64,000 nt of DNA from Streptomyces sp. CA-210063 (GTDB lineage Bacteria; Actinomycetota; Actinomycetes; Streptomycetales; Streptomycetaceae): the NCBI RefSeq assembly GCF_024612015.1, contig NZ_CP102512.1:5890001-5954000 (forward strand), given 5' to 3'. The notes beneath the pieces were generated by a model, which searched no databases, had not been told where the DNA came from, and saw only the letters and a list, made by a program, of their open reading frames with translations. The first letter of the stretch is position 1. Each line of letters opens with the position of its first letter. This document shows, one piece after another, positions 500 to 16,410 of the stretch. A program made the translations under genes and the position numbers.

Positions 500-543
500 G
501 TCCGTCGTCGGTCCGTCGTCGGTCCGTCGTCGGTCCGCCGTCA
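500..543. repeat. 11-bp tandem repeat at the 3' end of the HD-domain gene
   Basis: Three exact copies of GTCCGTCGTCG and a fourth degenerate copy lie end to end. The fourth copy runs into the stop codon of the HD-domain gene at 541-543. An 11-bp unit changes frame at each copy, so expansion here would affect only the untranslated tail of that gene. Confidence 0.85.
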
Positions 544-1191
544 GCCCTCCTCCAGGCCGTCCAGCTCCGCCCGCAGGTTCTCCCGCGCCCGCTCCTCCCA
601 CTCCCGCTGCCCGTACGGCGTCCTGAACAGCCTTGGCAGGTCGAGGAGTTGCCGCAGCACAGCCGCCCGGCCCGCACGGAAGGCGTCGTCAGGCACGAAC
701 CCGTACTCCTCCCGCACGGCGGCGGCATAGGCGGCGTACGCGTCCGGCGCCGACGCGAGAACCGCGAGATCCGCGTCGCACAGCACCTGCCCGTTCGGGT
801 CGTCGTCGGCCGGGTCGTGCGTGACGGTGAGGCGCACCAGCCGCGCCACCTCCGCTACCTTCTCCTCCGTCACCCCCGCCTCGGCCAACGCCCGCTCGGC
901 GAGCCGCGCCGACCGCTCCTCGTTCTCCGACCGCTCCGGCAGATAGACCGCGTCGTGGAACCAGGCGGCCAGGCGTACGAGGTCCGGGTCGTCGGCGTAC
1001 TCCTCCAGCACGTCGATGTGGTCCAGGACCGCGGTGAGGTGGGCGAGCGTGTGGTACTTCCGCTGCGGCTCGGACCAGCGCTCGAGGAGGTTCGCGGCGT
1101 AGGGGGCCGGGTCGGGGTCGCGGGCGCCCTCGCGGGCGGAGACGAGGGCCTGGGCCCAGCGGGCTTCCCATGCGTCTAGGGCGTCGGACAT
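541..1191 (-). CDS. HD-domain metal-dependent phosphohydrolase-like protein
   Basis: 216 residues matching the predicted HD-superfamily phosphohydrolases of the COG4339 type. Visible metal-ligand segments are YHTLAHL near residue 46, AAWFHDAVY near residue 76 (the HD pair), and LCDADLAVL near residue 137. No membrane segment or signal peptide is seen, so it is probably cytoplasmic. The substrate is unknown; nucleotides are common in the superfamily. It is divergent from the gene at 1260, leaving about 70 bases for both promoters. Its stop lies in the 11-bp tandem repeat. Confidence 0.8.
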   Translation of the reverse strand: MSDALDAWEARWAQALVSAREGARDPDPAPYAANLLERWSEPQRKYHTLAHLTAVLDHIDVLEEYADDPDLVRLAAWFHDAVYLPERSENEERSARLAERALAEAGVTEEKVAEVARLVRLTVTHDPADDDPNGQVLCDADLAVLASAPDAYAAYAAAVREEYGFVPDDAFRAGRAAVLRQLLDLPRLFRTPYGQREWEERARENLRAELDGLEEG

Positions 1192-1259
1192 GCAGGCATT
1201 GTGCCGTGGCCGGACCCGACACGAGACACGGCGGGCCCCCTCCTCCTAGCGTGGGTGGC

Positions 1260-1934
1260 ATGACTGTTGCCGATACGCACGATGTACGGGACCCCGAGCT
1301 GCCCGGCCGGTTGCTGGCCGCCGAGCGGGACGCGCTGGTGCCGCTGTTGCGGGAGCGCCCGGAGGAGGACTTCGCGGCGCCCACCTGTTGTCCGGGGTGG
1401 ACCGTGCGGCATGTGCTCGCGCACTGCGGGGCCGTGCTGTCGCGGGTGGTGGAGGGCCGGTTCGAGGAAGGGGTGTTCAGCCCGGAGTCGAACGACCGGG
1501 ACATCGCCGACCGGGACGGCTGGCTGGTCGCCCGGGTCGTGGACGAGCTGGAGCGGGGGATGACCGACGCCGGGCCCGTGATCGCCGAGGCCGGTGGGGC
1601 GCTGGACGGGATCGCGCTGGGGGAGTGGGTGCACGCCGGTGACGTACGCGACGCCTGGGGCCTGCCGGGGGCGTACGGCGGCGCGCAGCTCGGGCCCGCT
1701 CTGGAACTGCTGGCCCACGTCACCCGCGTACGCGGGACCCTTCCGCTCCACGCCGACCTCGACGACCTGGACGAGCCCCTGCGGCTGGGCGCGGCGACCG
1801 GCGACGGCCCGCCCGCGCGCTACATCGGCGATGCCACGACCCTCGTACGGCTCTACGCGGGCCGCCGCCTGCCCGCCGACACGTCGTACGAACTGGCCGG
1901 CACGACCGAGGCCGAGCTCAACCTCTACGCCTGA
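1260..1934 (+). CDS. Maleylpyruvate isomerase-family (mycothiol-dependent, DinB fold) protein
   Basis: 224 residues from the ATG at 1260. The N-terminal half has the MDMPI_N four-helix pattern (LVPLLRERPEEDFAAPT, then CCPGWTVRHVLAH) of the TIGR03083 group, and it keeps the His-containing WTVRHVLAHCG helix and WVHAGDVRDA near residue 125. In the family these residues bind a metal and mycothiol, the actinobacterial thiol. Real substrates of most members are unknown, so isomerase activity is not claimed. The ORF could open upstream, but the ATG is where homology starts. Its end overlaps the convergent DUF397 gene by 10 bases. Confidence 0.75.
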   Translation: MTVADTHDVRDPELPGRLLAAERDALVPLLRERPEEDFAAPTCCPGWTVRHVLAHCGAVLSRVVEGRFEEGVFSPESNDRDIADRDGWLVARVVDELERGMTDAGPVIAEAGGALDGIALGEWVHAGDVRDAWGLPGAYGGAQLGPALELLAHVTRVRGTLPLHADLDDLDEPLRLGAATGDGPPARYIGDATTLVRLYAGRRLPADTSYELAGTTEAELNLYA

Positions 1935-2227
1935 GCTTCGCCGACGGGGAGTTGAGGGGCCGCCGCGACGAAGCCCGACCAGGCGGCGGCGCCGAAGACG
2001 AGCACACCGCCGGTCACGTTCTTGCTGTCGCGGACGGGGATGATGCCGGGGAAGTCGTTGCTGACTTCGACGCATTCATCGCCGGCGCCGCAGCTATGGC
2101 TGGACTTGCGCCAGGAGAGGGCGGCGCCGGTGAAGTCGCCGCCGACCTCCAGGCAGTCCCCGCTGGTTCCCCCGCTGTAGCTGCTCTTACGCCAAGTCGC
2201 GGTCCTCAGGTCGGGAGCGGTGCGCAT
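1925..2227 (-). CDS. DUF397 protein with one and a half repeats
   Basis: 100 residues. DUF397 proteins are normally about 60-70 residues with a WxKSSYS...CVEV start and a PVRDSK...LVF.AAW end. Here a first incomplete unit (ATWRKSSYSGG...CLEV, residues about 10-30) is followed by a complete unit (LSWRKSSHS...CVEV...IIPVRDSK...WSGFV, residues about 37-90). This suggests a tandem copy that lost the end of unit one. It overlaps the upstream XRE gene by 41 bases, so the two are co-translated. DUF397 proteins are the small partners of XRE/DUF5753 regulators, as in the BldB/WhiJ-like systems of Streptomyces. Confidence 0.85.
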   Translation of the reverse strand: MRTAPDLRTATWRKSSYSGGTSGDCLEVGGDFTGAALSWRKSSHSCGAGDECVEVSNDFPGIIPVRDSKNVTGGVLVFGAAAWSGFVAAAPQLPVGEAQA

Positions 2228-3050
2228 CCTCGTACTCCTTGGCCGCCTGCTCGATCAGGGCGAGGGACGCGCCAGGCGACAGCGCCGCACCCCCAAGCAG
2301 ATCGTAGGTCAGCACGGAACGGGTCACCACAGCCGGATCGTCGAACAGGCGGCCAGTTTCGGACCCTTCGGTGTAGCTGAGGGGAGGTGCGTCCTCGAAC
2401 GTCATCAGCTTGAACATGCCTTGCATTCCGGCGGTCGCTCCCTCCGCCAGCGGGAGCACTTGGACGATGATCCGGTGGCGCCTCACCATCCCCGCGATGT
2501 GCCGGAGTTGCTCCGCCATGCCCGCCGGGCCGCCCACCGGGCGTCGTAGGGCCATCTCGTCCAGGATCGCCCAGTACCGGGGCGTCCGAGGGTCGTCGAA
2601 GATGTGCGCGCGAGCCTGTCGTGCCGCCACCCGCTCCTCGACGATGTCCTCCGTCAGTACAGGGTCGTACGCCCGGACCACGGCCCGCGTGTACGCCGCC
2701 GTCTGAAGCAACCCGGGCACCAGGGTCGGGCCCCACTCCTTGATCGTCTGAGCCAGCCCCTCGAACTCCACCACATCCGCGAAGTGGTGCTCGTACGGCG
2801 ACTTCCGCGCCGCCTCCAGGTTCCGTACGAAGAACCCGTCCGTCCCCAGGATCTCGTCCACCGACCTGGCGTACTCCAGTCGCATCCGGCGGAGTCCGGC
2901 CTCCAACTGCCCCACGAAGGACCCGGAGACGAACATCGCCGCCCCCAAGTCCTCCTGGGACATCCCCGCCCGCTCCCGCTGATGGCGGAGTTCAGCGCCG
3001 TACAGGGCGCGGGTGGACTCGGACGGGTCGAGGGTCTTCGGCTTGGGCAT
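2187..3050 (-). CDS. XRE-family helix-turn-helix regulator with DUF5753 domain
   Basis: 287 residues. An N-terminal HTH (ELRHQRERAGMSQEDLGAAM, residues about 21-40, and a recognition helix near SGSFVGQLEAGLRRM) is followed by the DUF5753 domain (EFEGLAQTIKEWGPTLVPGLLQT...YTRAVVRAY...RVAARQAR and LIVQVLP-like segments). In Streptomyces such regulators work with the adjacent DUF397 protein in developmental control. The targets here are unknown; the pair probably controls itself. The start ATG at 3050 leaves about 175 bases to the divergent cutC. Confidence 0.9.
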   Translation of the reverse strand: MPKPKTLDPSESTRALYGAELRHQRERAGMSQEDLGAAMFVSGSFVGQLEAGLRRMRLEYARSVDEILGTDGFFVRNLEAARKSPYEHHFADVVEFEGLAQTIKEWGPTLVPGLLQTAAYTRAVVRAYDPVLTEDIVEERVAARQARAHIFDDPRTPRYWAILDEMALRRPVGGPAGMAEQLRHIAGMVRRHRIIVQVLPLAEGATAGMQGMFKLMTFEDAPPLSYTEGSETGRLFDDPAVVTRSVLTYDLLGGAALSPGASLALIEQAAKEYEDAHRSRPEDRDLA

Positions 3051-3174
3051 GGGGCAACTCCCTCTCGAACAGCCGGTCTTGTTGCAGCGCGCCCTAACGA
3101 GGGTAGATGCGGAGGGTGGTCGCCCGCCTGCGAACCGTTACGACTGCATCCAACAGTCCGGGTTGTTGCTAAAT

Positions 3175-3186
3175 TGGACTAGACCT
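3175..3186. promoter_or_regulatory. DasR-type (dre-like) operator candidate upstream of cutC
   Basis: TGGACTAGACCT matches the chitinase/GlcNAc-regulon operator core TGGTCTAGACCA/T at all positions except the T-to-A in the left arm (and the last base of the palindromic version). It lies about 40 bases before the cutC ATG, where an operator would be expected. DasR is the GntR-family GlcNAc regulator of Streptomyces. Binding is inferred from sequence only. Confidence 0.45.
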
Positions 3187-3225
3187 GTAGTCGTCACTCG
3201 ATCAATGCCCGACGAAAGGGGCCCC

Positions 3226-3951
3226 ATGGCCACGCGCGCGCTTCTGGAGGTGATCGCCCTCGACGCCGAGGACGCCGTCGCCGCCCAGACCGGAGGTGCC
3301 GACCGGCTGGAGCTGGTCACGGACATGGGGGCCGACGGACTCACCCCGGCGGTCGCGACGTTCGTGGAGGTGCAGGCCGCCGTGGACATCCCGGTCCGGG
3401 TCATGCTGCGGCTCGCCGACGGGTTCGCCGCGGGGGACGTGGACGCGCTGGTGCGGGCGGCGTGCGACATGCGGTCGGCCGGGGCGGAGGGGTTCGTGCT
3501 CGGGTTCCTCGACCCGCAGGGGGAACCGGACCTGCACGCCGTGGAGCGGGTGGTCGCGGAGCTGGACGGGCGGCCGTGGACGTTCCACCGGGCGATCGAC
3601 CGCGCCGCCGACCGGGACGCCCTGCGCAAGCAGCTCGCGGACCTGCCGGGGCTGGACACCTACCTCACGGCGGGCTCGGCGGCGGGGGTGGACGACGGTC
3701 TGCCCGTACTCCTCGCGGAGGCGGCCCGCCGTGGCGACCCCGGCTACGCCCAGCGCCTCATGATCGGCGGCGGCCTCCGCCTCGACCACGTCCCGCGCCT
3801 GCGCGCCGCCCGCGTCGACGCCTTCCACATCGGAGGCGCGGCCCGCCCCGGGGGATGGACCGCGCCGGTCGCCGCCGGTGCCGTACGGGAATGGCGTACG
3901 GCACTGGACGCCCGCGCCGCCCGCGCGGGAAACAGAACCCGGGGCGACTGA
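3226..3951 (+). CDS. cutC: CutC-family copper homeostasis protein
   Basis: 241 residues with the CutC TIM-barrel pattern: LEVIALDAEDAVAAQTGGADRLELV at the start (strand 1 with AGADRIELC-like motif), VRVMLR, a GAEGFVLGFLD segment, TFHRAID, and AFHIGGAAR at the end. The start is the ATG at 3226 because GAAAGGG stands five bases before it; an in-frame ATG at 3205 lacks a good site. The family was linked to copper tolerance in E. coli, but a direct copper role is doubtful in many bacteria. It is divergent from the XRE gene and may be under DasR-type control. Confidence 0.9.
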   Translation: MATRALLEVIALDAEDAVAAQTGGADRLELVTDMGADGLTPAVATFVEVQAAVDIPVRVMLRLADGFAAGDVDALVRAACDMRSAGAEGFVLGFLDPQGEPDLHAVERVVAELDGRPWTFHRAIDRAADRDALRKQLADLPGLDTYLTAGSAAGVDDGLPVLLAEAARRGDPGYAQRLMIGGGLRLDHVPRLRAARVDAFHIGGAARPGGWTAPVAAGAVREWRTALDARAARAGNRTRGD

Positions 3952-3973
3952 ACCGGGACGGCTCGGCCGTGGA

Positions 3974-6900
3974 TCAGGGCTGACGTCGTTCGGGAAGACC
4001 GTGCTCCGCCGCCCTGACGATCGAGTCGCGCAGCTGGGCGCAGTCGGCCATCTCGTGCGCGTACAGATCGGGGTTCAGGTCGGCGAGCGGGGCGAGGCTC
4101 TTCTCGGAGGCCGCCACCTCGCGCAGCGCCTCGTCGAAGGCGCCGGTCCAGGGGAGGGTGTCCGCGAGGTTGTAGTGGCAGGTCGCGACGGCCAGCGCGT
4201 ACTGGTCGGGCTCGATGTGCGGCTCCACCTCGCGGGTCAGCTCCAGCGCCTTGTACAGCTCGGGCAGGGCCTCGCGCTGACGGCCCATCTGGGAGAGCAC
4301 GCCGCCGTACTGGCTGAGGGCGCCGGCCAGGGCGGACCGGTCGGTGGGCAGGCCGCACACGTCGAGGAGTACCTGCCGGATGGCGACCGCCTGGCCCAAC
4401 AGGCTCTCCGCGTTGTCCATCTGCCCGGCCCGCAGACTTTCCTGGGCCCGGTCTTCGAGCCGAGCCGCCACGAGGTCGCCGTGCTGCTCGGGATCACGGC
4501 GGATCAGGAGGCGGCGGACGAACATCGCCCGGCGGATCGTGGAGCGCGCCGCCCGGGGCCGACCGAGGGCGAAGTAGAGGTCGACGGCGACGGACAGCAG
4601 GGCGGTGTACTCGCCCAGGTGGTCGCCCGGGAGGTTCTTGATGTCGCGGCCGTAGTTGCGGACGGCCCGGTCGACGAGTCGCTTCACCCTGCGCAGGTCA
4701 CCCTGCTGGTCGGGGTTCCTCCGGGCGAGGTCGATCAGGTTCTCGGCGAGCATGATCTGGGCCTGGGCCTCCACCCTGGGGCGGGAGATCTTGCGGCGGA
4801 CGAGTTCGGAGCCGACCTCCAGGCACTCCTCGGAGGCCTGCCGCGCCTCGTCGAGGCGGCGCAGTTCCGTCAGGACGGACCCGTGCTGGAGGAGGGAGTT
4901 CCAGAACAGCTCGTTCGGCACGCCGGCGTCCGCGACGAGGCGTCGTCGGATGGCCAGCCCGCGGCGGATCGGCTCCAGCGCCTCTTCGGGTCTGCCCATG
5001 GAGACGAGCGTGCCACCGATGTTGTTGAGGACGACGGCCAGGCCTTCCGCGGCCACCGGGGTGGCCAGGCTCTCCGGCCGGTCGACGACGGCGAGCGCGT
5101 CGCGCAGCACGGCGAGTGCCTCCTCGAACCGGTCCAGCTGCCGCAGCCGGTTGGCACGGCCGACGAGGCTGCCCACGGCGTCGTGGCCGAGGGCGTCGGG
5201 CCGCTCGTCGGCCATCTGCCGCAGGGTCTGCGCGGTGGGCTCGGACAGCATCTGGGCGGCGGCACGGAACTCGCCCTGGCGATTGAGGGTGCGCCCGAGC
5301 TCGGCCTCGGCGTCCGCGAGACGTTCGAGTACGACGGGATCGCTGCTGCCGCCACCGTCGTCGCCGTCGGCAAGGGTGTTGAGGAGGGTGACGCGTTGCT
5401 CCTGGAGGGGGCGCGCGGCATCGTCGTCACCGGCGCCGACGAGGACACGGGCACGCTCGCCGAGGATCTCGGCCTCGGCGGGGGCCCGGTCGGCCGGGGC
5501 AAGTGTGCCGACCAGGTCGGCGGCCCTGTCCAGCGCGGCCCGGGCCTTGTCGAACTCGGCGGTCCAGCGGTGCGAGCGGGCCATGGTCAGCAGCGCGGTG
5601 AACCGTGCGGCGGGGGTGGCTTCAGCCTCGCCGGAGTCGTACAGCCGCAGCGCCTCGTCGCATCGGCGTACGGCCGTCCAGTGGTCCCCGGCGGCGTGCC
5701 GCCACCCCGCCTCGTGCACGAGCGCCGTAGCCCGCGGGGTCGGGGGAAGCCCCCGCGCGGCCGTGGCGGCGGTACGCGTGGCCCACCCGGCGAGCACCCG
5801 GCTGCGCCCCGCGCCCAGCCGGCCGAGCAGCTCCAGCAGCAGCTCGGGGTCGGTGTCGGGAGCGTCGGTGAGCCGGTGCAGGGCGTCGAGGAGGGGCTCG
5901 GGGGACTCGGTGAGGGTGGTGGCCTCCATGACCGTGCCGGCGAGGGCCGAGTCCCGGGCGAGGGCCTCGTCCAGGGCGCGGGCGACGGGGCCCCAGTGGC
6001 GGGGGAGTTCGGCCACGCGGGAGAGAGTGACGAGGGCGGCGAGGAGGGTGGGGGCGGCGAGGAGCGTGGGGGTGGCGAGGAGAGTGGGGGCGGCGGAGGG
6101 GAGCGGCGGGGGGTCGGCCGACGTCGGCTGTCCGGTGCGGGCGGGCGGCGACTCGGGACTCCCCGTGGACGTCGGCTGTCCGGTGCGGGCGGCCACTGAC
6201 GCGGTGCGGCGCTCAGGGCCCGGCGGGGCGGGTCGCGAGTCGGGGGCCCCGGCGGGCGTCGGCTCGTCGGCTGGGGACCGCGACAGCGCCGTCCCTGCCC
6301 CTGCCCCTGCCCCCGCCCCCGCCAACGTCAGCAACGGCAGCGTCACCAGGTCCGTGTCCGCCCGTGTCCGGTCCCCCACGTGGTACTCCCCGAGGCGGTC
6401 CGGCTGGAGGGCGCCCCAGCAGCTGTCGCCCGGGGCGGGGTACATCTCGGCGAGCCAGGCTGTGCCCTGGTCCACGGTCGGGGCGTCCGCCGTGCGGAAG
6501 CCGGGTGAGGAGCGCAACAGCGGGGCGGCCAGGGCGGGTTCGGCGCCCGCGGTGAGGACCGCCGTGCCGACCGCGTCGGCCAGGGACACGGGGCCCGCCG
6601 CCGCCAGTCGGGGACGGCCGGCGGCGCTGTCCTCCCAGTACGCGCGCTCGTGCAGGAGGAGTTGCTCCTCGACCCGCAGACCGGTGTCGTCCAGGCGGGT
6701 CGCGGGGTGGGTGGCGAGGAGGTCGGTGAGCGCGGTCATGTGCAGGGTGAGGGCGGAGCCGTACTCGGGGGCGCTCACATCGCGCGGGGCGACGAGGGCG
6801 ACGCGTCCCGTCCAGTCACCGGTGACATCCCTGAGCGCCCGGGGCAGTGCCTCGGGGAGGCGCCGGGCGAGGTCGGTGAGGGCGTCGCGGTAGTGCGCGT

Positions 6901-8095
6901 CGCGGTCCGGTAACTCCGTCAGCGGAGGCAGTTCGTGGTGCGGGGCGTCGTAGGTCAGGTTTCTCGTCTCGCGCGTGCGGGTCCTGAGCTGGTCCCACCA
7001 GCCGCCCGTGGTGTCGCCCCTGCCCCGCGCGGTGAGCAGCAGCCGTACCGGAGGGCGGCCGTCGGGCCGTCGGTCCAGCACGGTGAGCAGGGCGGTCAGC
7101 TGGGCGATCCGCAGCTCGGCGTAGTCGGCGACCAGGATCAGCGGGCGGTCCACCTCGGCGAGCACACCGAGGTCCTCGGCCGGGCCGCGCTCGTCCAGCC
7201 AGCCGCAGACCCAGCCGTGCCGGTCGCGCAGCCGGGTGCACAGTTCGCGGGCGAGCCGGGACTTGCCGGCACCGCCGGGCCCGGTGAGGACGGCGAGCCG
7301 TACGCCGTCGCCGTCGCACCAGTCGTCGATCAGCTCCCCCAGCAGGTGCTCGCGGCCGTGGAAGCGGACCACCTCGGCGCGCTGGTCCAGCAGCGTCGCC
7401 GGGGACCGGACCCGCCAGCCCTCGGCGGGTGTGACGAGGCCCTGAAGGTCGGCCGGCTCCCACACGGGCGCGGCGGCGGTGTGCCGGGTGACCAGGTCCG
7501 TGAACTCCGGGTCGGCCAGCAGCGCGTACACCGGTACGGCCTCCCAGCGCGGCAGCCCCCAGCCGCTGACGTCGGTCACGACGACGCCGGTCAGCAGCGC
7601 GCCGCTGAAGAGGGCCGCGCCGGACTGGCCGCTCCACGGGGAGGGTGTGCGGCGGGCGGGGTCGGCGGGCGGCGCGCTGGCGAGTTCCACGGTGTAGCGG
7701 TGGGACAGGGCGCCGGTGCCGGGGGCGAGGGTGGCGCGCGGCTGCTGGAGATCGAGGCCGCCGTCGGCCCGGCGCCCGGCCTCGGGGTAGCCGGCGACGT
7801 CGCAGGGCTGGTGCCGGGCGGTGACGAGCCGCCCCCAGCGGACCGGGGCGACCTGCTCGCGGACGTCTGCCTCGGCGAGGAGCAGGGCCACGTCGACGTG
7901 AGTGGCGCCACGCCAGACGACGGTGCAGGGTACGGCGCGACCGCCGGGCACCTGTACGTGGCAGGTGTCCCGCCCCTTCAGCACATGACGGGCCGTCACT
8001 ATCAGCCTGCGGCCAAGGAGATAGCCGGTTCCGTTGCCGCCGTACCGCTGCTCCGCACCCGGGAGCAGGACCGCGACGATACGACTCAGTTCCAT
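3974..8095 (-). CDS. Giant trypsin-like peptidase / P-loop NTPase / TPR protein
   Basis: 1373 residues. Residues 1-205 are a trypsin-fold domain with the full triad visible: H37 in TARHVL, D68 in HVDVALL, S157 in WSGQSGAA. A P-loop NTPase follows (TGPGGAGKSRLAREL, K277; probable Walker B in ILVADYAEL), then a second ATPase half, then a low-complexity linker (residues about 610-690: Gly-Ala run, two RTGQPTS copies, three PTLLA copies). Residues about 740 to the end are tetratricopeptide-like helices. Trypsin plus STAND-like NTPase plus TPR is the layout of signal-responsive conflict ATPases in Actinobacteria. No signal peptide, so cytoplasmic. The Trypco2 gene lies 37 bases upstream in the same direction. 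Confidence 0.85.
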   Translation of the reverse strand: MELSRIVAVLLPGAEQRYGGNGTGYLLGRRLIVTARHVLKGRDTCHVQVPGGRAVPCTVVWRGATHVDVALLLAEADVREQVAPVRWGRLVTARHQPCDVAGYPEAGRRADGGLDLQQPRATLAPGTGALSHRYTVELASAPPADPARRTPSPWSGQSGAALFSGALLTGVVVTDVSGWGLPRWEAVPVYALLADPEFTDLVTRHTAAAPVWEPADLQGLVTPAEGWRVRSPATLLDQRAEVVRFHGREHLLGELIDDWCDGDGVRLAVLTGPGGAGKSRLARELCTRLRDRHGWVCGWLDERGPAEDLGVLAEVDRPLILVADYAELRIAQLTALLTVLDRRPDGRPPVRLLLTARGRGDTTGGWWDQLRTRTRETRNLTYDAPHHELPPLTELPDRDAHYRDALTDLARRLPEALPRALRDVTGDWTGRVALVAPRDVSAPEYGSALTLHMTALTDLLATHPATRLDDTGLRVEEQLLLHERAYWEDSAAGRPRLAAAGPVSLADAVGTAVLTAGAEPALAAPLLRSSPGFRTADAPTVDQGTAWLAEMYPAPGDSCWGALQPDRLGEYHVGDRTRADTDLVTLPLLTLAGAGAGAGAGTALSRSPADEPTPAGAPDSRPAPPGPERRTASVAARTGQPTSTGSPESPPARTGQPTSADPPPLPSAAPTLLATPTLLAAPTLLAALVTLSRVAELPRHWGPVARALDEALARDSALAGTVMEATTLTESPEPLLDALHRLTDAPDTDPELLLELLGRLGAGRSRVLAGWATRTAATAARGLPPTPRATALVHEAGWRHAAGDHWTAVRRCDEALRLYDSGEAEATPAARFTALLTMARSHRWTAEFDKARAALDRAADLVGTLAPADRAPAEAEILGERARVLVGAGDDDAARPLQEQRVTLLNTLADGDDGGGSSDPVVLERLADAEAELGRTLNRQGEFRAAAQMLSEPTAQTLRQMADERPDALGHDAVGSLVGRANRLRQLDRFEEALAVLRDALAVVDRPESLATPVAAEGLAVVLNNIGGTLVSMGRPEEALEPIRRGLAIRRRLVADAGVPNELFWNSLLQHGSVLTELRRLDEARQASEECLEVGSELVRRKISRPRVEAQAQIMLAENLIDLARRNPDQQGDLRRVKRLVDRAVRNYGRDIKNLPGDHLGEYTALLSVAVDLYFALGRPRAARSTIRRAMFVRRLLIRRDPEQHGDLVAARLEDRAQESLRAGQMDNAESLLGQAVAIRQVLLDVCGLPTDRSALAGALSQYGGVLSQMGRQREALPELYKALELTREVEPHIEPDQYALAVATCHYNLADTLPWTGAFDEALREVAASEKSLAPLADLNPDLYAHEMADCAQLRDSIVRAAEHGLPERRQP

Positions 8096-8132
8096 CCGTG
8101 CCCCCGTTCACCGTCGTACGCCTGCGGGCGGG

Positions 8133-8462
8133 TTACCGGGTCAGCCCGCCCCCACCGGCCAAACCGCCCGTCGGAGCGTCGCTGTTGCCGATGTGGATGC
8201 CCTCGCCGTCCTGGTCCACCGCGCGCAGCGTGAACGCCAGCTTGTGGGTGGCGGTCTCGGATTTCACGACCCCCGCCTCCCCGGACACGACCCACGCCTT
8301 GACGGACCCCTTCCCGCTCTGCTCGCGGCGCAGCTCGACCGTGAACTCCAGGGAGATGTCGCCGAGTTGGAAGCGCACACCGGAGTCCCTGGCGCGATCG
8401 CGGGCGGCGGTCAGTTCGGCTCGAAGGTGGTCGATGGCTTCGCCGACGGTGATGTCGTTCAT
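8133..8462 (-). CDS. Trypsin-co-occurring domain 2 (Trypco2) protein
   Basis: 109 residues. One N-terminal helix (AIDHLRAELTAARDRA) is followed by beta strands FQLGDISLEFTVELRRE, VKAWVVSGEAG and ATHKLAFTLRAV, the profile I recognise as Trypco2, a small domain found beside trypsin-NTPase genes. Its position 37 bases before the trypsin-NTPase-TPR gene supports this. Its role is unknown; it is thought to regulate or be processed by the partner peptidase. The C-terminal tail is Gly-rich. Confidence 0.8.
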   Translation of the reverse strand: MNDITVGEAIDHLRAELTAARDRARDSGVRFQLGDISLEFTVELRREQSGKGSVKAWVVSGEAGVVKSETATHKLAFTLRAVDQDGEGIHIGNSDAPTGGLAGGGGLTR

Positions 8463-8513
8463 ACGGCCACCGTAGCGACGGACCGAGGCGGCTGTCCCCG
8501 CTCCGGCGGAAGG

Positions 8514-10223
8514 TCAGCCGGACGGATCGACCAGCGTGGGCACCAGATGCCGCTGCGCATGGCGGACGTACTCCCCTACGCGCTCCCACCCGTTCTCCTC
8601 CCCCTCCCGCCGGGTGCGCAGCCCCCAGGCCTTGGGCAGTTCGTGCTCCTTGATCCACAGCATGTAGCGGCACACCGCCTCGCGCCGGTCTCCGATCGCC
8701 TCCAGTCGGCGGGCGAGGGCGCCGTCGCGGCGGGCGCGGGCGAGCGCGGCGAACATGTCGACCACGGCGTAGTAGCTGAGCACGGCCTCGGTCGTGCGGC
8801 TCACGCAGGCCAATACCACTGCGGCCTCGTGCCGCGCCTGTTCCTCCAGCCGCCGGGTCCGGCCGAACCGGCTCGGCCGCCCGTGATGGAAGTGGCGCCG
8901 GATGTTGTCGAAGTCGGGTACGAAGGGGCCGTCCTTGCCGGCCCCCAGGATGAGGGCGTTCATCGTGTGGACGTATGCCGCGCAGTCCGCCTGCGTCGCC
9001 AGGCGCACCTCCCGGGGCAGCCCTTCGGTGAACGGCACCAGGGGCGGCTCGGCCCCGTCGCTGAGCCTGCCCTCGAGGATCGGGGTGAGTTCGCGGGCGA
9101 TGAGGAAGAGGGTGCACGCGTCGAAGACCAGGTAGGGGTCCCCGGACCCGTACCGGACCTCGCCCTCCGGCATGGCCATCGGGATGAGCGGCCGAGGTGG
9201 GAGCAGGGTGGCGGAGCGCGGGGGTCGCCAGGAGCGCAGGTACGAGGCGACGGTGTCGTCGACATCGGCCCAGGTGCTGTCACGGTCGGGCGTGAAGGGG
9301 GCGGGCGTGAAGGAGCCGGGATCGGCGGCGCCGGATGCCGCTTCCCCGGTGACGGCGAAGAGGGTGGGCAGGGCCCAGGAGATGTTGGCCATCAGATCAC
9401 TGGTCTGCGGCGCCAGTCCGATGACGAAGCCCTGCCGGCCGTCGGCGAGGGGGCGGGCCAGCACCCGGGACTCCGGCTCGGTGGAGGGCTGGACGAAGAC
9501 CTCGACGGTGGAGGCCGCTCGTCGGACCTCGTCCACGTCGGGGAGGCGCGGGTCGCGCACGCGGTGATCGCCGTCGTCGGTACGGGAGAAGGCGTGGGCG
9601 AGCAGGAGCAGGTCGAGCAGTCTGCGGGGCCCGCCGGACATGTCGGCCAGCTTCTCCGGGTTGTCGAGCAGGGTGCCGGTGGGGTCGGCGCCGCTGACGA
9701 AGTCCGGGTCGGTGAAGACACGGGCGAGCCGGGTGGCCTCGGCGGCGAGCTCGGCGTTCTGGTGGTCGCGGAACATGATGCTGGGCGCGTAGGGGAGGGG
9801 CGTTGGGTCCGGCACCCCCTGTGCGAAGAGGCCGTTGAGAGCGGAGCGCAGGGCTCCGGCGTCTCGTACGGGCACGTCGCGTCGTGGCTTGCGGATCACG
9901 ATCTGCCCGTGCTCGACGCGGGGATCCGACCGCACGACGACATCGGTCGGCCCCGCGAGGCGTACGGCGATGCCGTACCGGAAGAAGTGACGGAGCGCGG
10001 CGACGACGTCCGCGAGGGCGGCGGCCGTGGCGGTGCCGGTGAGGATGTCATCGCCCAGGGCGTCGGCGCCCGGCGGGCGTAAGTCCGCGTACGCGACACC
10101 GGCCCGGCTCAACACATCCCTCGCGGCGCCCGTCTCCCCGCGATCCGACGCGGCGAAGAGATGGAAGACCACCTGTGCCCCGGTGCCGGCGCCGATGGCC
10201 ACCGGTGTCGTCGCTTCCCCCAT
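8514..10223 (-). CDS. Unrecognised 569-aa protein heading the trypsin-NTPase cassette
   Basis: I do not recognise a domain. From the ATG at 10223 the protein opens with MGEATTPVAIGAGTGAQVVFHLFAASD and an alpha/beta-looking 90-residue region, then a long alpha-rich body with DPYLVFDACTLFLIARELTPI and a C-terminal helical part rich in Arg, His and Trp. No signal peptide or membrane helix is seen. The ORF could begin 18 codons earlier, but the 10223 ATG has GAGG close by. About 50 bases separate it from the Trypco2 gene, so the three minus-strand genes are probably one operon, with this gene first. It may supply the sensor or effector; that is inference from position. Confidence 0.6.
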   Translation of the reverse strand: MGEATTPVAIGAGTGAQVVFHLFAASDRGETGAARDVLSRAGVAYADLRPPGADALGDDILTGTATAAALADVVAALRHFFRYGIAVRLAGPTDVVVRSDPRVEHGQIVIRKPRRDVPVRDAGALRSALNGLFAQGVPDPTPLPYAPSIMFRDHQNAELAAEATRLARVFTDPDFVSGADPTGTLLDNPEKLADMSGGPRRLLDLLLLAHAFSRTDDGDHRVRDPRLPDVDEVRRAASTVEVFVQPSTEPESRVLARPLADGRQGFVIGLAPQTSDLMANISWALPTLFAVTGEAASGAADPGSFTPAPFTPDRDSTWADVDDTVASYLRSWRPPRSATLLPPRPLIPMAMPEGEVRYGSGDPYLVFDACTLFLIARELTPILEGRLSDGAEPPLVPFTEGLPREVRLATQADCAAYVHTMNALILGAGKDGPFVPDFDNIRRHFHHGRPSRFGRTRRLEEQARHEAAVVLACVSRTTEAVLSYYAVVDMFAALARARRDGALARRLEAIGDRREAVCRYMLWIKEHELPKAWGLRTRREGEENGWERVGEYVRHAQRHLVPTLVDPSG

Positions 10224-10394
10224 ACCTCGACAGCATGGCGGCAGGCGGAGGGATGAATCAACCGATCGGAGGGACACGGGGAGCGAGCGGGCGAACGTCC
10301 GCCTGGGGACGCTCAGGGCTCACCAGCCGTGGGCCACCCCGGGGCGGTGAGGCGTCCCCGGGGTGCTCACGTCGGTCCGCGACCGTTCGTGTCG

Positions 10395-11165
10395 TCAGGC
10401 GTTCGGGTCGAACGAGATCCCCGAAGGCATCGCCGCCGCGAGGTTGGAGGCGAAACTGCCGTCCTTGAGGCCGAAGTTGGCGCTGCCGAAGTTGTACGCG
10501 ACGAGGGTGTCGCGGATCGCGGTCGACGGGTAGCCGTTCCAGCCGACGAGCGGCGGGTACTGCCAGGTGCCCTCGTGGTTCTCCGGCGGCTCGTCGCCGG
10601 AGGTGGCGAGGCGGAAGCAGTGCGTGCTGATGCCGTCCTTGTGGTAGACGATCTTCGGGTGGTTGCCGTCCCAGCGGACGGAGGACGCGGCGTGCACGGT
10701 GAAGTCGCCGTGGTTGGAGGTCGAGACGTACCGGGCCGTGCCGTTCTGCACCCAGACGACGACGTGCTCCCAGTCGTGCCGGTGGCCGCCGATGCTGCTG
10801 CCCGCGACCGCCTGGTCCTTCTCGAAGTAGAGGTCGTACATGATCGCGCACCAGCCGTTGTTGCACTTGTAGCGCGAGTAGCCGTTGGTGTTGTCCAGGT
10901 CGGACGCGTCGCGGCAGTCGCCGCTGAGCGAACCGGTGGGGTTGAGCCCGCCGTTGACCGTGCCGGTGGGGCCGATGGCGGGGGTCGAGTAGCAGCCGTC
11001 GGTGTCGTAGTCGTAGGCCGGCTGCCAGGTCGTCTCCAGGGTCTCCGCGTTGGCGGGCAGCGCGGCGGGCGGGGCCGCGTACGCGCTGCCGGCGAAACCG
11101 ACGACCAGCGCGAGGGCGCCGCCGACGGTGAGCAGGGATCTTCCTGTGCGGGAGCTTGTCTTCAC
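10395..11165 (-). CDS. Secreted NPP1/Nep1-like necrosis-inducing protein
   Basis: 256 residues from a GTG preceded by AGGAGG at a five-base gap. A Sec signal peptide (KTSSRTGRS, then LLTVGGALALVVGFAGSAYA) precedes a mature NLP domain. The family signature GHRHDWE is intact inside SIGGHRHDWEHVVVWV, along with paired cysteines in DGCYSTPAI/GDCRDAS and KCNNGWCAIM. NLP proteins are extracellular cytolysins that bind plant sphingolipids and occur in oomycetes, fungi, and some Streptomyces and Pectobacterium. Secretion is certain from sequence; toxicity is known of the family, not tested here. Confidence 0.9.
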   Translation of the reverse strand: MKTSSRTGRSLLTVGGALALVVGFAGSAYAAPPAALPANAETLETTWQPAYDYDTDGCYSTPAIGPTGTVNGGLNPTGSLSGDCRDASDLDNTNGYSRYKCNNGWCAIMYDLYFEKDQAVAGSSIGGHRHDWEHVVVWVQNGTARYVSTSNHGDFTVHAASSVRWDGNHPKIVYHKDGISTHCFRLATSGDEPPENHEGTWQYPPLVGWNGYPSTAIRDTLVAYNFGSANFGLKDGSFASNLAAAMPSGISFDPNA

Positions 11166-11546
11166 TGCGTCCTCCTGGTGGACCGCGGCGCGGGGGATGC
11201 CGATGCGGGGAATCCCCATGCGGGGGGGATCCCGAGGTGGGGGATGGCATGCGCAGGTCAGGTTCGCCTTACTCGCCGGTAGTCCACAAGTGTCGGAAGG
11301 TGTCGGAGTGATGAAGACTCAATCACTGTGGCAACGCTGTGAGTTGGGGGCCGAGGGCTTCGGAACCCCGGATCTGCCATGACATGACGTCACATCACGG
11401 ATCGATATCCGCCACGTAGTTGTTATGTGCGAAGTCGCCGCGAGAGGCCTCCCGGAGATCATTCCGCGCCCGCCCGCGTGCATAGTTGTCTCGCCCCGGC
11501 CAAGCGGGGGCATGACAACTTTCAGCCATAACGGGGGACGGGCTCC
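11166..11546. other. Intergenic region with divergent promoters and a TGACGTCA palindrome
   Basis: About 380 bases between the divergent NLP toxin and lipoprotein protease genes. It holds a repeated GGGGATNCC-type motif near the NLP start and an imperfect 18-bp palindrome at 11380-11397 centred on TGACGTCA (14 of 18 bases symmetric). Base composition is less GC-rich than the genes around it. The palindrome is a possible operator; no ORF was found. Confidence 0.5.
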
Positions 11547-12803
11547 ATGCCATCCATACGCCGCCGCGGCCTCACGGCCGCAGCCGCCGTGATCGCCGCG
11601 GTCATGGTCACCACCACGGCCTGCAGCAAGACCGAGGACAACGGGGCGAACGCCTCGGCGCCGACGACCGCCCAGGCGGACGCGGGCGACACCATCGACA
11701 CCGGTGAGAACGAGAGCGGCGGTGACACGACCGTCGGCGGCTTCAAGCTCCCGGAGGGCGTGCCCACCGAGCTGACCGGTGACGCGCTGCAGAAGTGGAA
11801 GGACGGTGGCTGGCAGGACTTCGACAGCGACTGGGCCTCCAAGGCGGAGGACTTCGCCAACCCCTACATCGAGGACTTCTGGACCCCGGAGCGCATCGCC
11901 GAGGCCAAGGAGAACATGGCCCAGCTGCCGACGATCGCGGAGGCGGGCAACACGGCGAAGGGTGGCGGCAAGACCACCCAGGTCTGGCTGCCCGACGGCA
12001 CGGTCAAGAAGCAGAAGGCCGCCAAGGTCAAGGCGACCTACCACAAGTACGCCCCGCCGGTCGGCAAGCTCTTCTTCACGACGCCCCAGGGCTCGAGCGT
12101 CTGCTCCGCCGCCGTGGTGAAGGACCCGGCGCACCCGGGCAAGTCCAACCTCGTGTGGACCGCCGGGCACTGCGTGCACGCGGGCAAGGGCGGCGGCTGG
12201 TACCGCAACATCGCCTTCGTCCCGTCCTTCAACAACACCGCCAAGCTGAACATCGCCCAGGCGTCGAAGAACTACCGCGCGAAGAACGTCTCCCCGTACG
12301 GCATCGCCTGGGCCGACTGGGCCACCACCTCCGGCACCTGGATCAAGGGCGGTGCCGCCAGCGAGGGCACCGTGGCCGCCGCGTACGACTACGCCGTCCT
12401 CCACGTGAAGCCCGAGAAGGGCGCCAAGTCCCTTGAGGAGCGCCTCGGTTCGGCCCTGCCGGTGTGGTTCAACGCCCCCGCCGCCAACAAGGTCAAGAAC
12501 ATGAAGGTGCGCGGCTACCCGGCCGAGGCCCAGTACGACGGCTCGAAGATGTACCACTGCCAGGGCGCCACCAAGCGCTTCGTCCTCGGCTACAGCTACC
12601 CGAGCAGCTACCCGGCCCAGTACATGGTCGGCTGCACCATGAACGGCGGCGCCTCCGGCGGCCCCTGGTTCATGAGCCACAAGGGCAAGACCTACCTGGT
12701 CTCCAACAACTCCCTGAGCGACCGCTCCACGTTCATCACCGGGCCGCGCCTCGGGAAGAACGCCAAGGAGGTCTACTTGGCGACCAGCAACAAGTTCAAG
12801 TAG
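11547..12803 (+). CDS. Secreted lipoprotein with V8/trypsin-like serine protease domain
   Basis: 418 residues. A type II signal peptide with lipobox VTTTAC (Cys at residue 26) shows it is a membrane-anchored lipoprotein. A Ser/Thr/Asp-rich spacer is followed by a chymotrypsin-fold domain: H208 in TAGHCVH, D281 in AYDYAVLH, S370 in GGASGGPW. Cys pairs around the active site may form disulfides. The arrangement resembles glutamyl-endopeptidase/trypsin-like serine peptidases of actinomycetes. A strong hairpin follows about 45 bases after its stop. Confidence 0.88.
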   Translation: MPSIRRRGLTAAAAVIAAVMVTTTACSKTEDNGANASAPTTAQADAGDTIDTGENESGGDTTVGGFKLPEGVPTELTGDALQKWKDGGWQDFDSDWASKAEDFANPYIEDFWTPERIAEAKENMAQLPTIAEAGNTAKGGGKTTQVWLPDGTVKKQKAAKVKATYHKYAPPVGKLFFTTPQGSSVCSAAVVKDPAHPGKSNLVWTAGHCVHAGKGGGWYRNIAFVPSFNNTAKLNIAQASKNYRAKNVSPYGIAWADWATTSGTWIKGGAASEGTVAAAYDYAVLHVKPEKGAKSLEERLGSALPVWFNAPAANKVKNMKVRGYPAEAQYDGSKMYHCQGATKRFVLGYSYPSSYPAQYMVGCTMNGGASGGPWFMSHKGKTYLVSNNSLSDRSTFITGPRLGKNAKEVYLATSNKFK

Positions 12804-12846
12804 GCCCCACGTGTCGTAGGCAGATGGACAGGGCTCGTGCCTGATC

Positions 12847-12876
12847 GGCCCCCGGTGACCTCGGTCGCCGGGGGCC
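12847..12876 (+). terminator. Hairpin terminator after the lipoprotein protease gene
   Basis: A perfect 9-bp stem GGCCCCCGG / CCGGGGGCC with a 12-base loop, 44 bases past the stop. There is no T-tract, as is usual in streptomycetes. Confidence 0.7.
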
Positions 12877-12903
12877 GTCGCGTGTGCACGTACATTCGGC
12901 GGC

Positions 12904-13470
12904 ATGAACACGTCCGAGTGGTGGGAGCCGCTGCCCGCCGGCATCCGTGAACAGGTCGACGGGTACGTCCTCCAGGACGCCTACATCCAGGCGGTCCACG
13001 TCGTCTTCATGGCCGGTCGCGCTCTGGGCCTGGGCCTCCATGACGCCGAACGCGTCGTCCACGACCGCTACGCCCACCACGGCGACCGCGTCGCCCGCAC
13101 CCCCGACAGCCCCCTCGACCCGGAGTCGCTGGCCGCCCTCGCCGCCGGCTGCCCCGGCCGCGTCGTCGCCATCGAGGCGGTGTGGGACGGCGACACGGTC
13201 CACGGCTGGTTCGTGCAGCTGCTGGCCCTGACGACCGACCCGCCCGGGGAGCACCGACTGGCCACCATCCACTGGAAGACGGCCGAGCGGTACCTCGGGG
13301 AGGACGGGGACGGGGACGGGGACGGGGATGGGGATGGGGACGGGACCGAGGGCCACCCGTCGGCCGTGGCCGCCGACCGCTGCGGCAGAGCCCTGGCCGC
13401 CCGCCTCTCGGTCCCCTTCCACTTCGCGAGCCCCGACACCCCGGACGACCTGGCCAGGTGGACCGGGTGA
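12904..13470 (+). CDS. Hypothetical protein with (Asp-Gly)7 tract
   Basis: 188 residues, no domain recognised. The first 120 residues look folded and soluble (DAYIQAVHVVFMAGRALGLGL; VVAIEAVWDGDTVHGWFVQLLAL); a (DG)7 spacer at about residues 134-147 links to a shorter C-terminal piece. The tract is encoded by a GGGGAC hexanucleotide microsatellite and is probably length-variable. It has its own ATG at 12904 about 28 bases beyond the terminator. Confidence 0.6.
   Translation: MNTSEWWEPLPAGIREQVDGYVLQDAYIQAVHVVFMAGRALGLGLHDAERVVHDRYAHHGDRVARTPDSPLDPESLAALAAGCPGRVVAIEAVWDGDTVHGWFVQLLALTTDPPGEHRLATIHWKTAERYLGEDGDGDGDGDGDGDGTEGHPSAVAADRCGRALAARLSVPFHFASPDTPDDLARWTG
13303..13344 (+). repeat. Hexanucleotide microsatellite (GACGGG/GATGGG)7
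   Basis: Seven 6-bp units inside the 188-aa hypothetical gene, five GACGGG and two GATGGG. Because the unit is a multiple of three, slippage would only change the number of Asp-Gly dipeptides. Confidence 0.95.
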
Positions 13471-13639
13471 CGGGGGAGGAGCGCGACGCGAGTCCGTCGA
13501 GTGTCGAGCACGGCGACACCCATCCGGGTGGCCACCGGCCCCGGGTGACGGCCATGGCGTCACGGGAGTAGGCGAAGCGCGTCGGGGCGGCCATCATCTC
13601 CCTCATGGCCGAGCTGACCCGACGAAGCTCGCCAGCCGT

Positions 13640-13695
13640 ACTCGACCAGCGGAACTCGACCAGCGGAACTCGACGAGCCGCACTCGACCAGCAGA
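13640..13695. repeat. 14-bp tandem repeat upstream of the reductase gene
   Basis: Four head-to-tail copies of ACTCGACCAGCGGA (the third and fourth with 2-4 changes) end 20 bases before the ATG at 13715, just before the ribosome site AGAAGAAGGGGAG. They lie in the leader, where they could affect translation or bind a factor. Confidence 0.85.
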
Positions 13696-13714
13696 AGAAG
13701 GGGAGTCGCCAGCC

Positions 13715-14374
13715 ATGTCACTCGCCCGCGTCCACAACTTCTCCGTCTCGCTCGACGGCTTTGGCACCGGTGAGGGCCAGAGCCGCGACGCGCCGTTCGG
13801 CCACGCCGGTGAAGGGCTCCACGAGTGGATGTTCGCCACCCGGTGGTGGCACGAGGCGACCGGCCGGCCCGGAGGGACCGGCGGCCTCGACGACGCCTTC
13901 GCACGGCAGTTCAAACCCGGGATCGGCGCGGAGATCATGGGCGCCGGGAAGTTCGGCTATCCCGGATGGCACGAGGACCCGGAGTGGAAGGGGTGGTGGG
14001 GGCCCAACCCGCCCTTCCACACACCGACCTTCATCCTCACCCATCACCCCCGCCCGTCGATCGAGATGGAGGGCGGCACGACGTTCCACTTCCTCGACGC
14101 CCCGCCCGCCGAGGCGCTGGAGGCGGCCCGCGAGGCCGCGGGCGGCCAGGACGTACGCATCGGCGGAGGGGTCACCGTGGTCCGTGACTTCTTCGCCGCC
14201 GGGCTCATCGACCACATGCACGTCGTGGTGGCCCCCGTCCTGCTCGGCCGAGGCGTACGCCTCTGGGACGGACTGGAGGGCCTGGAGAAGGACTACGACG
14301 TCGAGGCCGCCGCCTCGCCCAGCGGGGTCACGCATCTGACGTTCACCCGTGCCGGTCTCCCCAACACGGCCTAG
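13715..14374 (+). CDS. RibD C-terminal/dihydrofolate reductase-like protein
   Basis: 219 residues from ATG 13715, chosen for the AAGGGGAG site nine bases upstream. It opens with RVHNFSVSLDGF, typical of the YyaP/YwjB-type RibD_C reductases, then IGAEIMGAGKFGYPGW, and ends with the nucleotide-binding part IGGGVTVVRDFFAAGLIDHMHVVVAPVLLGRG. The family binds NADPH; most of these small reductases have no known substrate. Its stop overlaps the stop of the convergent helicase gene by four bases. Confidence 0.85.
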   Translation: MSLARVHNFSVSLDGFGTGEGQSRDAPFGHAGEGLHEWMFATRWWHEATGRPGGTGGLDDAFARQFKPGIGAEIMGAGKFGYPGWHEDPEWKGWWGPNPPFHTPTFILTHHPRPSIEMEGGTTFHFLDAPPAEALEAAREAAGGQDVRIGGGVTVVRDFFAAGLIDHMHVVVAPVLLGRGVRLWDGLEGLEKDYDVEAAASPSGVTHLTFTRAGLPNTA

Positions 14375-16410
14375 GCGAGCTGCGGCGGCAGCGGGGCCGC
14401 GTGGGTCACGATCAGGCCCGACACGGCACGCGTGAGGGCCACGTACAGGCGGCGCAGGCCGGTCCGTTCGTCCGGCTCGCCGTCGACGACCGCTCGCGGT
14501 TCGTCCAGCACCACGTAGTCGTACTCGAGGCCCTTCGCGAGCGACGCCGGTACGAGGGTGAGGCGGGTCTCGTACGTCGTCTCCTCGCCCGGCGCGAGAT
14601 GGCCGATGCCCGCCGCCGTGAGCGCCTCGGCGAGGGCGGGCACGCGGGCGTCGGCGGCGATGAGCCCGGTCGACCCCTCGTTGCGCAGCAACTCCTCGCA
14701 GGCGGCGACCACTTCGGAGTCCCCCGAGCTCGGCCGTACGTCGAAGAAGCCCGGGTTCTCCCGGACCGACGCGACCGGGGTCAGGCCGGGCGCGATGTGG
14801 GGGAGGAGACGGGAGGCGTACGTGATGACGTCGGTCGGGACGCGGAAACCGGCGGTCAGCTCCTCCACATGGGCCTCCGCCTTGCCGAGGTGCGTCAGGG
14901 CCTCGTCCCAGCTCTTCGTCGCCCAAGGGGTCGTGCCCTGCGCGAGGTCGCCGAGGACGGTCGCGGAACCGGTGGTGCAGCGGCGCCCGACCGCCCGGTA
15001 CTGCATGGGGGACAGATCCTGCGCCTCGTCGAGCACGACATGCCCGAGCGAGTGCGTGCGCCGCACGAGGTCGGTGGTCTCGTCGATGAGCACGGCGTCG
15101 GCGGCTGACCACCTGGCCGACTTCACGCTCCGCACGGGCTTCGCCCAGAGGATCGTCTTCTGCTCGTCCTCGGTCAGGATCCCGTCCGCGTGTACGGCGA
15201 GGAAGTCCGCGTCGGAGAGGAGACGCAGGACGAGCCTGGCCGGCTCGACGGGCGGCCAGATCGCCTTGACGGCCGCCTTCACGGCGGTGTTGCGGGCCAC
15301 CGCGTCCTGCACCCGGTCGTCGGGAGCCTCGCCGGACCGCTCCATCTGCACCAGCACCGCGTGCGCGATCCGCTGCGGCAGCGCCTCACGGGCGGCCCCG
15401 TAGCGGATCTCCCGGTCCAGCAACTCCCGCACGATGTCCTGCAGTTCGTACGCCGGTACGCGCCAGCGCCGCGACCCCCTGACGACCACGACGGGCTCGG
15501 TGGGGAGGGTGACGTGCGACCGTACGGCCCGGCGGAGCACCTCGGCCATCCGGGCGTCGCCCTTGACGACGGCGGCCGCCGCCTCGTCCGTGCCCCGCAC
15601 CTCGACGTGGGCGACGAGGTCGTCGACGGTCGCCTGCTTGACCTCCAACTCGCCGAGCGCCGGGAGGACCTGCTCGATGTAGTGGAGGAAGGAGCGGTTC
15701 GGCCCGATGACGAGGGTGCCGGTGCGGGAGAGGCGCTCGCGGTGGGCGTAGAGGAGGTAGGCGACGCGGTGCAGGCCGACGGCGGTCTTTCCGGTGCCGG
15801 GGCCGCCCTGGACGCAGAGGCTGCCGGACAGGTCGGACCGGACGATCTCGTCCTGCTCCGGCTGGATCGTCGCCACGATGTCCCGCATCGGACCGACGCG
15901 CGGACGCTCGATCTCCCGCTGGAGCAGCTTGCTGGTGGTCGCGGCCTCGGCGGGGTCGGAGAGGTGCTCGTCCTCGTACGCGGTGAGGTCGCCGCCGGTG
16001 TACCCGAAGCGGCGGCGCAGCCCGACGTCCATCGGGTCGGTCTTGGAGGCCCGGTAGAAGGGCTGGGAGACGGGGGCACGCCAGTCGATGACCATGGGAT
16101 CGCCGTCGGCGTCGTGGACGTGCCGCCGCCCGATGTAGAACCGCTCCCCTTCCGCTCCTTCCGCCTGATCCGCGGCCGGGGCGTGCAGATAGTCGAGCCG
16201 GCCGAAGAAGAGCGGGGTGTGGCTCAGGTCGGCCAGCGCCTTGATCCGCTCGCCGATCTGGTGCGCCAGGACCTCCGCGTTCACCCAGTTCGCGGTGACG
16301 TCCCTGATGTCCAGCGCCTCCACGTCCTCCCGCATGGCCCGGAGCGCGGAACGGGAGGCGGCGAGGTGGGAGCGTTCGCGGGAGAGGGGGTCGGTGGGGT
16401 GCGCGGACAT
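14371..16410 (-). CDS. helD: HelD/HelR-type RNA polymerase recycling ATPase (UvrD superfamily 1)
   Basis: 679 residues. The N-terminal coiled coil (LSRERSHLAASRSALRAMRE...ANWVNAEVLAHQIGERIKAL) is the secondary-channel arm of HelD. It is followed by YIGRRHV...PMVIDWRAPVSQPFYRA, Walker A QGGPGTGKTAVGLHR, and helicase motif II VVLDEAQDLSP; the end has LYVALTRAVSGL (motif VI). HelD proteins pull stalled RNA polymerase off DNA; the actinobacterial HelR branch protects against rifamycins. I saw no clear rifamycin-associated inverted repeat in the 330 bases upstream, so a resistance role is open. Confidence 0.9.
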   Translation of the reverse strand: MSAHPTDPLSRERSHLAASRSALRAMREDVEALDIRDVTANWVNAEVLAHQIGERIKALADLSHTPLFFGRLDYLHAPAADQAEGAEGERFYIGRRHVHDADGDPMVIDWRAPVSQPFYRASKTDPMDVGLRRRFGYTGGDLTAYEDEHLSDPAEAATTSKLLQREIERPRVGPMRDIVATIQPEQDEIVRSDLSGSLCVQGGPGTGKTAVGLHRVAYLLYAHRERLSRTGTLVIGPNRSFLHYIEQVLPALGELEVKQATVDDLVAHVEVRGTDEAAAAVVKGDARMAEVLRRAVRSHVTLPTEPVVVVRGSRRWRVPAYELQDIVRELLDREIRYGAAREALPQRIAHAVLVQMERSGEAPDDRVQDAVARNTAVKAAVKAIWPPVEPARLVLRLLSDADFLAVHADGILTEDEQKTILWAKPVRSVKSARWSAADAVLIDETTDLVRRTHSLGHVVLDEAQDLSPMQYRAVGRRCTTGSATVLGDLAQGTTPWATKSWDEALTHLGKAEAHVEELTAGFRVPTDVITYASRLLPHIAPGLTPVASVRENPGFFDVRPSSGDSEVVAACEELLRNEGSTGLIAADARVPALAEALTAAGIGHLAPGEETTYETRLTLVPASLAKGLEYDYVVLDEPRAVVDGEPDERTGLRRLYVALTRAVSGLIVTHAAPLPPQLA

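Follow-up and report, generated by a model that had tools for sequence, protein, structure and literature searches.

Gene organization of the cassette

Within a 64,000-nucleotide stretch of Streptomyces sp. CA-210063 DNA (contig NZ_CP102512.1, positions 5,890,001 to 5,954,000; hereafter the window, whose numbering is used throughout), three closely spaced genes on the minus strand encode, in order, a 569-amino-acid (aa) protein, a Trypco2 (trypsin-co-occurring domain 2) adaptor of 109 aa, and a 1373-aa protein joining a trypsin-like domain, an nSTAND-type nucleoside triphosphatase (NTPase) and tetratricopeptide repeats (TPRs). These genes occupy positions 8514..10223, 8133..8462 and 3974..8095, respectively, each begins with ATG, and they are separated by gaps of 51 and 37 bases. 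An earlier, sequence-only reading of this DNA had described the same three genes and had placed the Trypco2 gene 37 bases upstream of the trypsin gene; open reading frames, Pfam matches and the measured gap bear this out. A longer form of the 569-aa protein, initiated at a GTG codon at 10277, is unsupported because the initial methionine (M1) of the ATG form hardly varies across 22 aligned rows, including that of the window.

The 1373-aa protein is, as predicted from its sequence, a trypsin-like peptidase with a catalytic triad, combined with a STAND-type P-loop NTPase and TPRs. It exceeds the Pfam cut-offs for Trypsin_2 (PF13365; 1.2e-08, 36.2 bits against 27.6) and nSTAND_NTPase5 (PF25199; 9e-11, 42.2 bits against 34), and its TPR matches, which begin at residue 832, include TPR_12 at 1.9e-21. 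The putative triad consists of H37, D68 and S158, with the predicted nucleophile S158 residing in a GQSG motif; the Walker A motif (GPGGAGKS) carries its lysine at K278, and the Walker B motif reads ADYAE. H37 and D68 had been correctly assigned by the sequence-only reading, while its S157 and K277 each fall one residue short. The triad, K278 and the Walker B DYAE are identical in all nine genome-contig loci that were aligned, a set that leaves aside the plasmid-borne copy described below. The Trypco2 protein is likewise well above its cut-off (PF19631; 2.4e-24, 85.8 bits against 24.2). Its pairing with trypsin is recurrent, as had been claimed: the parts of Kaur et al. (2020; PMC7159879) available to us name Trypco domains and trypsins as linked parts of conflict systems. 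Trypco2 is termed an adapter domain in the corresponding part of PMC10907252, and what these portions of the two papers offer on Trypco2 is prediction, with no tested function.

The 569-aa protein resembles a degenerate gluzincin

In keeping with the earlier statement that the 569-aa protein belongs to no recognized family, neither Pfam nor PADLOC gives a match to its reading frame at E<=1, the best NCBIfam match is at chance level (E 0.16), and no correspondence to a known metabolic enzyme was found. A search in which 7997 candidates were scored returned 23 homologues, all of which, where an organism name is given, come from Streptomyces. Six homologues outside the trio (in loci L027, L028, L029, L030, L205 and L206) retain an HExxH sequence. 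The window protein carries R377-E378-L-T-P381 at this site, and A409-x-x-A-D413 where the same relatives carry ExxAD. Arginine and proline occupy the two motif histidine positions in 10 of 10 trio loci, as in all 22 rows of alignment A1, and the glutamate is kept in nine of the ten; the trio proteins thus lack the HExxH zinc motif of gluzincin/M48 metallopeptidases. On the tree of the family, one motif change suffices to account for this pattern.

A structure model built from sequences of the clade without HExxH has as its best-matching folds BepA (M48), DPP III (M49) and aminopeptidase N (M1), at modest Z scores. Taken together with the motif comparison, the model suggests that the protein looks like a small α/β domain (9806..10223, minus strand; residues 1-139 approximately, with modelled elements spanning 17-134) followed by a degenerate, M48-like gluzincin domain (8514..9806, minus strand; approximately residues 140-569). 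The sequence-only reading had raised the possibility of a new effector or sensor; a degenerate gluzincin is probably a better explanation of the protein than an entirely new kind.

The HExxH-bearing relatives (7531-10009 in L028, 9061-11578 in L029, 9076-11572 in L030 and 7998-10916 in L206) appear to constitute an intact zincin family that Pfam misses. The C-terminal TPRs of the L028-L030 proteins resemble the FxSxx-COOH system TPR family at scores below its cut-off, and a gene of 135-139 aa lies just upstream of each of these three HExxH genes. In L027 (9622-13996), an HExxH zincin fragment has trypsin and Trypco1 genes nearby, not far from where the contig ends, which hints that motif-bearing relatives also accompany trypsin and Trypco.

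The N-terminal domain of the 569-aa protein corresponds to a separate gene of 135-139 aa in L028, L029, L030 and L205. When compared with EACC1 (PF19953) by hhalign, this domain yields a probability of 2%, a value reached by 0 of 100 shuffles; when only L028-L030 are used, 35 of 100 shuffles score as high, and the Pfam scan gives no EACC1 match for the 569-aa protein. The joint between the two domains is variable: P0018 has an insert there that is rich in Gly, Ser and Pro, and in gene 1 of Streptomyces sp. yr375 (L007, 9878-12136) it holds a Gly-Pro-rich repeat of great length. This variability could be taken to mean that the 569-aa protein is both substrate and effector, with the trypsin of a fired switch cutting the linker and the freed piece acting on the cell, and effector release by associated peptidases has been proposed for related systems in the part of PMC7159879 available. 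However, the Pfam, NCBIfam and PADLOC scans detect in neither part of the protein a motif for catalysis or a domain of known toxicity, inspection of the alignment by eye reveals no conserved linker motif, and, because the two parts are separate genes in the four loci named above, the linker may be a mere scar of their fusion. We therefore regard this explanation as doubtful, if conceivable.

The three genes are inherited and move as a unit

A profile search for the 569-aa family, in which three candidates were scored in each of 392 Streptomyces genomes, found matches in 11. The fused gene is present in seven of these, each of which has the full trio; the other four (G047, G318, G343 and G364) hold distant HExxH-bearing kin. 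Ten loci with the fused gene were retrieved, comprising the window, eight other genome contigs (L006 and L009 among them) and one copy on a linear plasmid (L204). A search for the three-gene order in other Streptomyces had been proposed by the sequence-only reading, and the order is the same in every one of the ten, with no instance of unlinking.

The surroundings differ. When the flanks of nine loci (102 genes in all) are compared, shared genes are seen only between the window and L024, which form a sister pair. The plasmid copy is flanked by transposase genes, and the plasmid that carries it is linear and mobilizable. A related genome, G024, lacks the interval 3952..11532 (not assigned to a strand), which contains the trio and an NPP1-family gene: its orthologues of the window CutC-family gene (3205-3951) and of 11547-12803 adjoin, approximately 0.4 kb apart. 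Further orthologues are found on one side (14371-16410 and 17616-19262) and on the other (1260-1934, 541-1191 and 1-411), with some local differences: window segments 12904-14374 and 1925-3050 are absent from G024, which has other genes instead. This difference may stem either from acquisition of the interval in the window or from its loss in G024. The constant gene order in differing surroundings, the missing interval and the plasmid carriage together indicate that the three genes are inherited jointly and move together. The third place in the cassette is consistently taken by the 569-aa protein, which is not an accidental neighbor.

Several features of the flanks were also recorded. The NPP1-family (necrosis-inducing-protein-like) gene (10395-11219, minus strand; PF05630, 2.7e-62) lies directly upstream of the trio and is missing along with it from G024; in L024, genes for an 8xMP-family membrane protein and a 324-aa protein stand between the NPP1-family gene and gene 1. 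On the left flank, an HTH_31/DUF5753 and DUF397 gene pair (1925-3050, minus strand) has no counterpart in L024 or L202, so genes may have come and gone repeatedly in this neighborhood. The gene at 11547-12803 (plus strand) encodes a protein of 418 aa whose trypsin-like match is weak (E 0.0024) and falls below the cut-off, and most related genomes contain one to five matches to it.

A Trypco2-trypsin core with a clade-specific addition

Trypco2 is present in 64 of 101 sampled Streptomyces genomes. For comparison with the trio, 60 Trypco2 loci were taken down the list by score, with known trio loci left out, and the Trypco2 gene was recovered in all except one (L108). A trypsin gene lies next downstream in the same direction for 40 of these 59 Trypco2 genes; it lies next upstream in the same direction in 1 case and adjoins on the other strand in 11, and 7 have no adjoining trypsin gene. 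A divergent trypsin-like gene next upstream of Trypco2, on the opposite strand, was seen in L083, L087, L088, L105, L107, L120, L121, L122, L123 and L138, and genes matching mod_HExxH (TIGR04267) occur approximately 2-7 kb from Trypco2 genes at G007:C1:3736769, G003:C1:50578 and G011:C3:349938. The sequence-only reading held that the third partner of such systems varies. This view does not fit Streptomyces well, in that the downstream trypsin is the prevailing neighbor and upstream partners hardly recur: among 15 same-strand genes within 200 bases upstream of Trypco2 outside the trio, likeness is found only between L094 and L133 and between L132 and L139.

The 569-aa family occurs in 0 of the 60 comparison loci, and the trypsin-NTPase-TPR family of the trio is encountered without the third gene in four of them (L085, L097, L101 and L106). 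These observations argue that the core is the pair, with the 569-aa gene being an addition in one clade. They also bear on whether the 569-aa protein might be a dedicated inhibitor or antidote that keeps the trypsin-STAND protein inactive as long as no invader has removed it, in the manner of a toxin-antitoxin system. In favor of such a role, gene 1 opens a unit of three genes that are closely spaced in the window, all ten retrieved loci have inherited it together with the other two, and regulation is a common function of dead enzymes. The four pairs lacking it, however, show that it is not an obligate antidote for the core, and we judge this role decidedly unlikely. Among the trio loci, gene 1 and the TPR half of the trypsin protein diverge fast and at similar rates while the trypsin and NTPase domains stay conserved, which favors a role in recognition.

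TTA codons and possible developmental control

In Streptomyces, a TTA codon makes translation depend on the bldA tRNA. Codon 395 of the trypsin gene (window numbering) is TTA, encoding leucine, in eight of the ten trio loci (the window, L024, L025, L005, L006, L007, L008 and L009); L026 has CCG, and the plasmid gene is without TTA. Identity at four-fold sites of this gene is only 53-62% when the window is compared with L007-L009. Where CTT or TTG stands in the window and leucine is encoded in all eight loci, the codon is kept throughout in 0 of 7 columns, compared with 36 of 120 CTC or CTG columns. Because only one TTA column exists, its conservation serves as an indication. Codon 48 of gene 1 is TTA in 5 of 10 loci, with L008 having another TTA at a neighboring column, and two of the four TTA-containing genes among the 57 predicted in the window belong to this cassette. 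These sequence patterns hint at bldA control of the trypsin gene.

Developmental gating of this type, as suggested by the conserved codon, would also suit a system devoted to housekeeping or developmental proteolysis, such as programmed death or the turnover of proteins as the mycelium ages, that has no invader-directed role. The defence library likewise gives only weak matches, to the protease and P-loop parts of the trypsin-STAND protein. Against this, occurrence in only 7 of 392 Streptomyces genomes, the differing insertion sites, the relative without the interval and the plasmid carriage fit a dispensable mobile system better, making a purely cellular function distinctly improbable.

Proposed mechanism

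We tentatively propose, with slightly less than even confidence, that the cassette is a mobile conflict switch, probably directed against invaders, of the Trypco2-trypsin-STAND kind, in which the pseudo-peptidase serves as a clade-specific recognition subunit. The C-terminal domain of the 569-aa protein would be a dead gluzincin, unable to cut but perhaps still able to bind a peptide or protein in its cleft. In the off state, the pseudo-peptidase, Trypco2 and the trypsin-STAND-TPR protein would form a complex, and a cue would be bound by the dead cleft, the TPRs, or both. The 569-aa protein would thereby act as a recognition or gating subunit through Trypco2 and the fast-evolving TPR half, and NTP-driven assembly of the NTPase would switch on the trypsin, which could then cleave cellular or invader proteins and cause arrest or death of the invaded hyphal compartment. 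In most cassettes, the TTA codon of the trypsin gene might additionally tie its translation to the bldA tRNA and so confine the switch to the late or differentiating stages of the mycelium. The fullest form of this proposal is a conjunction that we consider unlikely as a whole: that a pseudo-metallopeptidase, derived from a two-gene active zincin by one fusion and the loss of both zinc-binding histidines, is the recognition subunit of an active trypsin-STAND-TPR protein via Trypco2, with protease translation gated by bldA, yielding an immune switch that is armed only while the mycelium differentiates.

Being compact and having a third subunit whose origin can be traced, the trio offers a testable system with one protease (S158), one NTPase (K278) and one pseudo-enzyme. 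It also draws attention to a metallopeptidase-derived family missed by both Pfam and NCBIfam in the versions used, and to what is probably a conflict system, perhaps linked through a rare codon to Streptomyces development. Trypco2 itself is widespread in the genus, yet the portions of the two papers cited above offer predictions.

Relationship to known systems

The ingredients of the cassette are already known, in that Trypco-trypsin conflict modules and the combination of an inactive zincin with a STAND NTPase both have precedents in the available parts of the literature. What is added here is the trio, the traced motif change with fusion, and the conserved TTA codon. Among the titles listed in searches of PMC, none resembles the trio, a result on which we base no firm claim of absence from print.

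Relative to M48 gluzincin peptidases such as E. coli BepA, the trio clade differs in the replacement of both motif histidines; the sole match to Pfam M48 is that of the L027 fragment (E 0.39, below the cut-off). The zincins of FxSxx-COOH peptide processing (mod_HExxH, TIGR04267) share with the cassette the presence of a zincin in actinobacterial conflict loci, and the associated TPR family is the one approached by the TPR half of the L028-L030 proteins. Neither the trio protein nor those of L028-L030 match TIGR04267 at E<=1, and hhalign against this family gives 4.8% over 20 columns around HExxH, with 0 of 100 shuffles as high.

The Trypco-trypsin modules of MoxR-vWA ternary systems, as described in the available part of Kaur et al. 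(2020; PMC7159879), are like the trio in having a trypsin-like peptidase with a neighboring Trypco2, an NTPase switch and an occurrence in multicellular bacteria. The trio is unlike the MoxR-vWA-VMAP ternary systems in that no MoxR, vWA or VMAP family match occurs in its genes or in the ten flanking genes scanned (541-16410), and in possessing a pseudo-gluzincin subunit. A precedent for such a subunit is provided by the iSTAND2 systems, for which the part of Kaur et al. (2021; PMC8195603) available describes inactive zincin-like domains with STAND NTPases in a conflict setting. The likeness drawn here is one of description; unlike in iSTAND2 as described there, the zincin-like protein of the trio is encoded by a separate gene beside those for Trypco2 and the trypsin-STAND-TPR protein.
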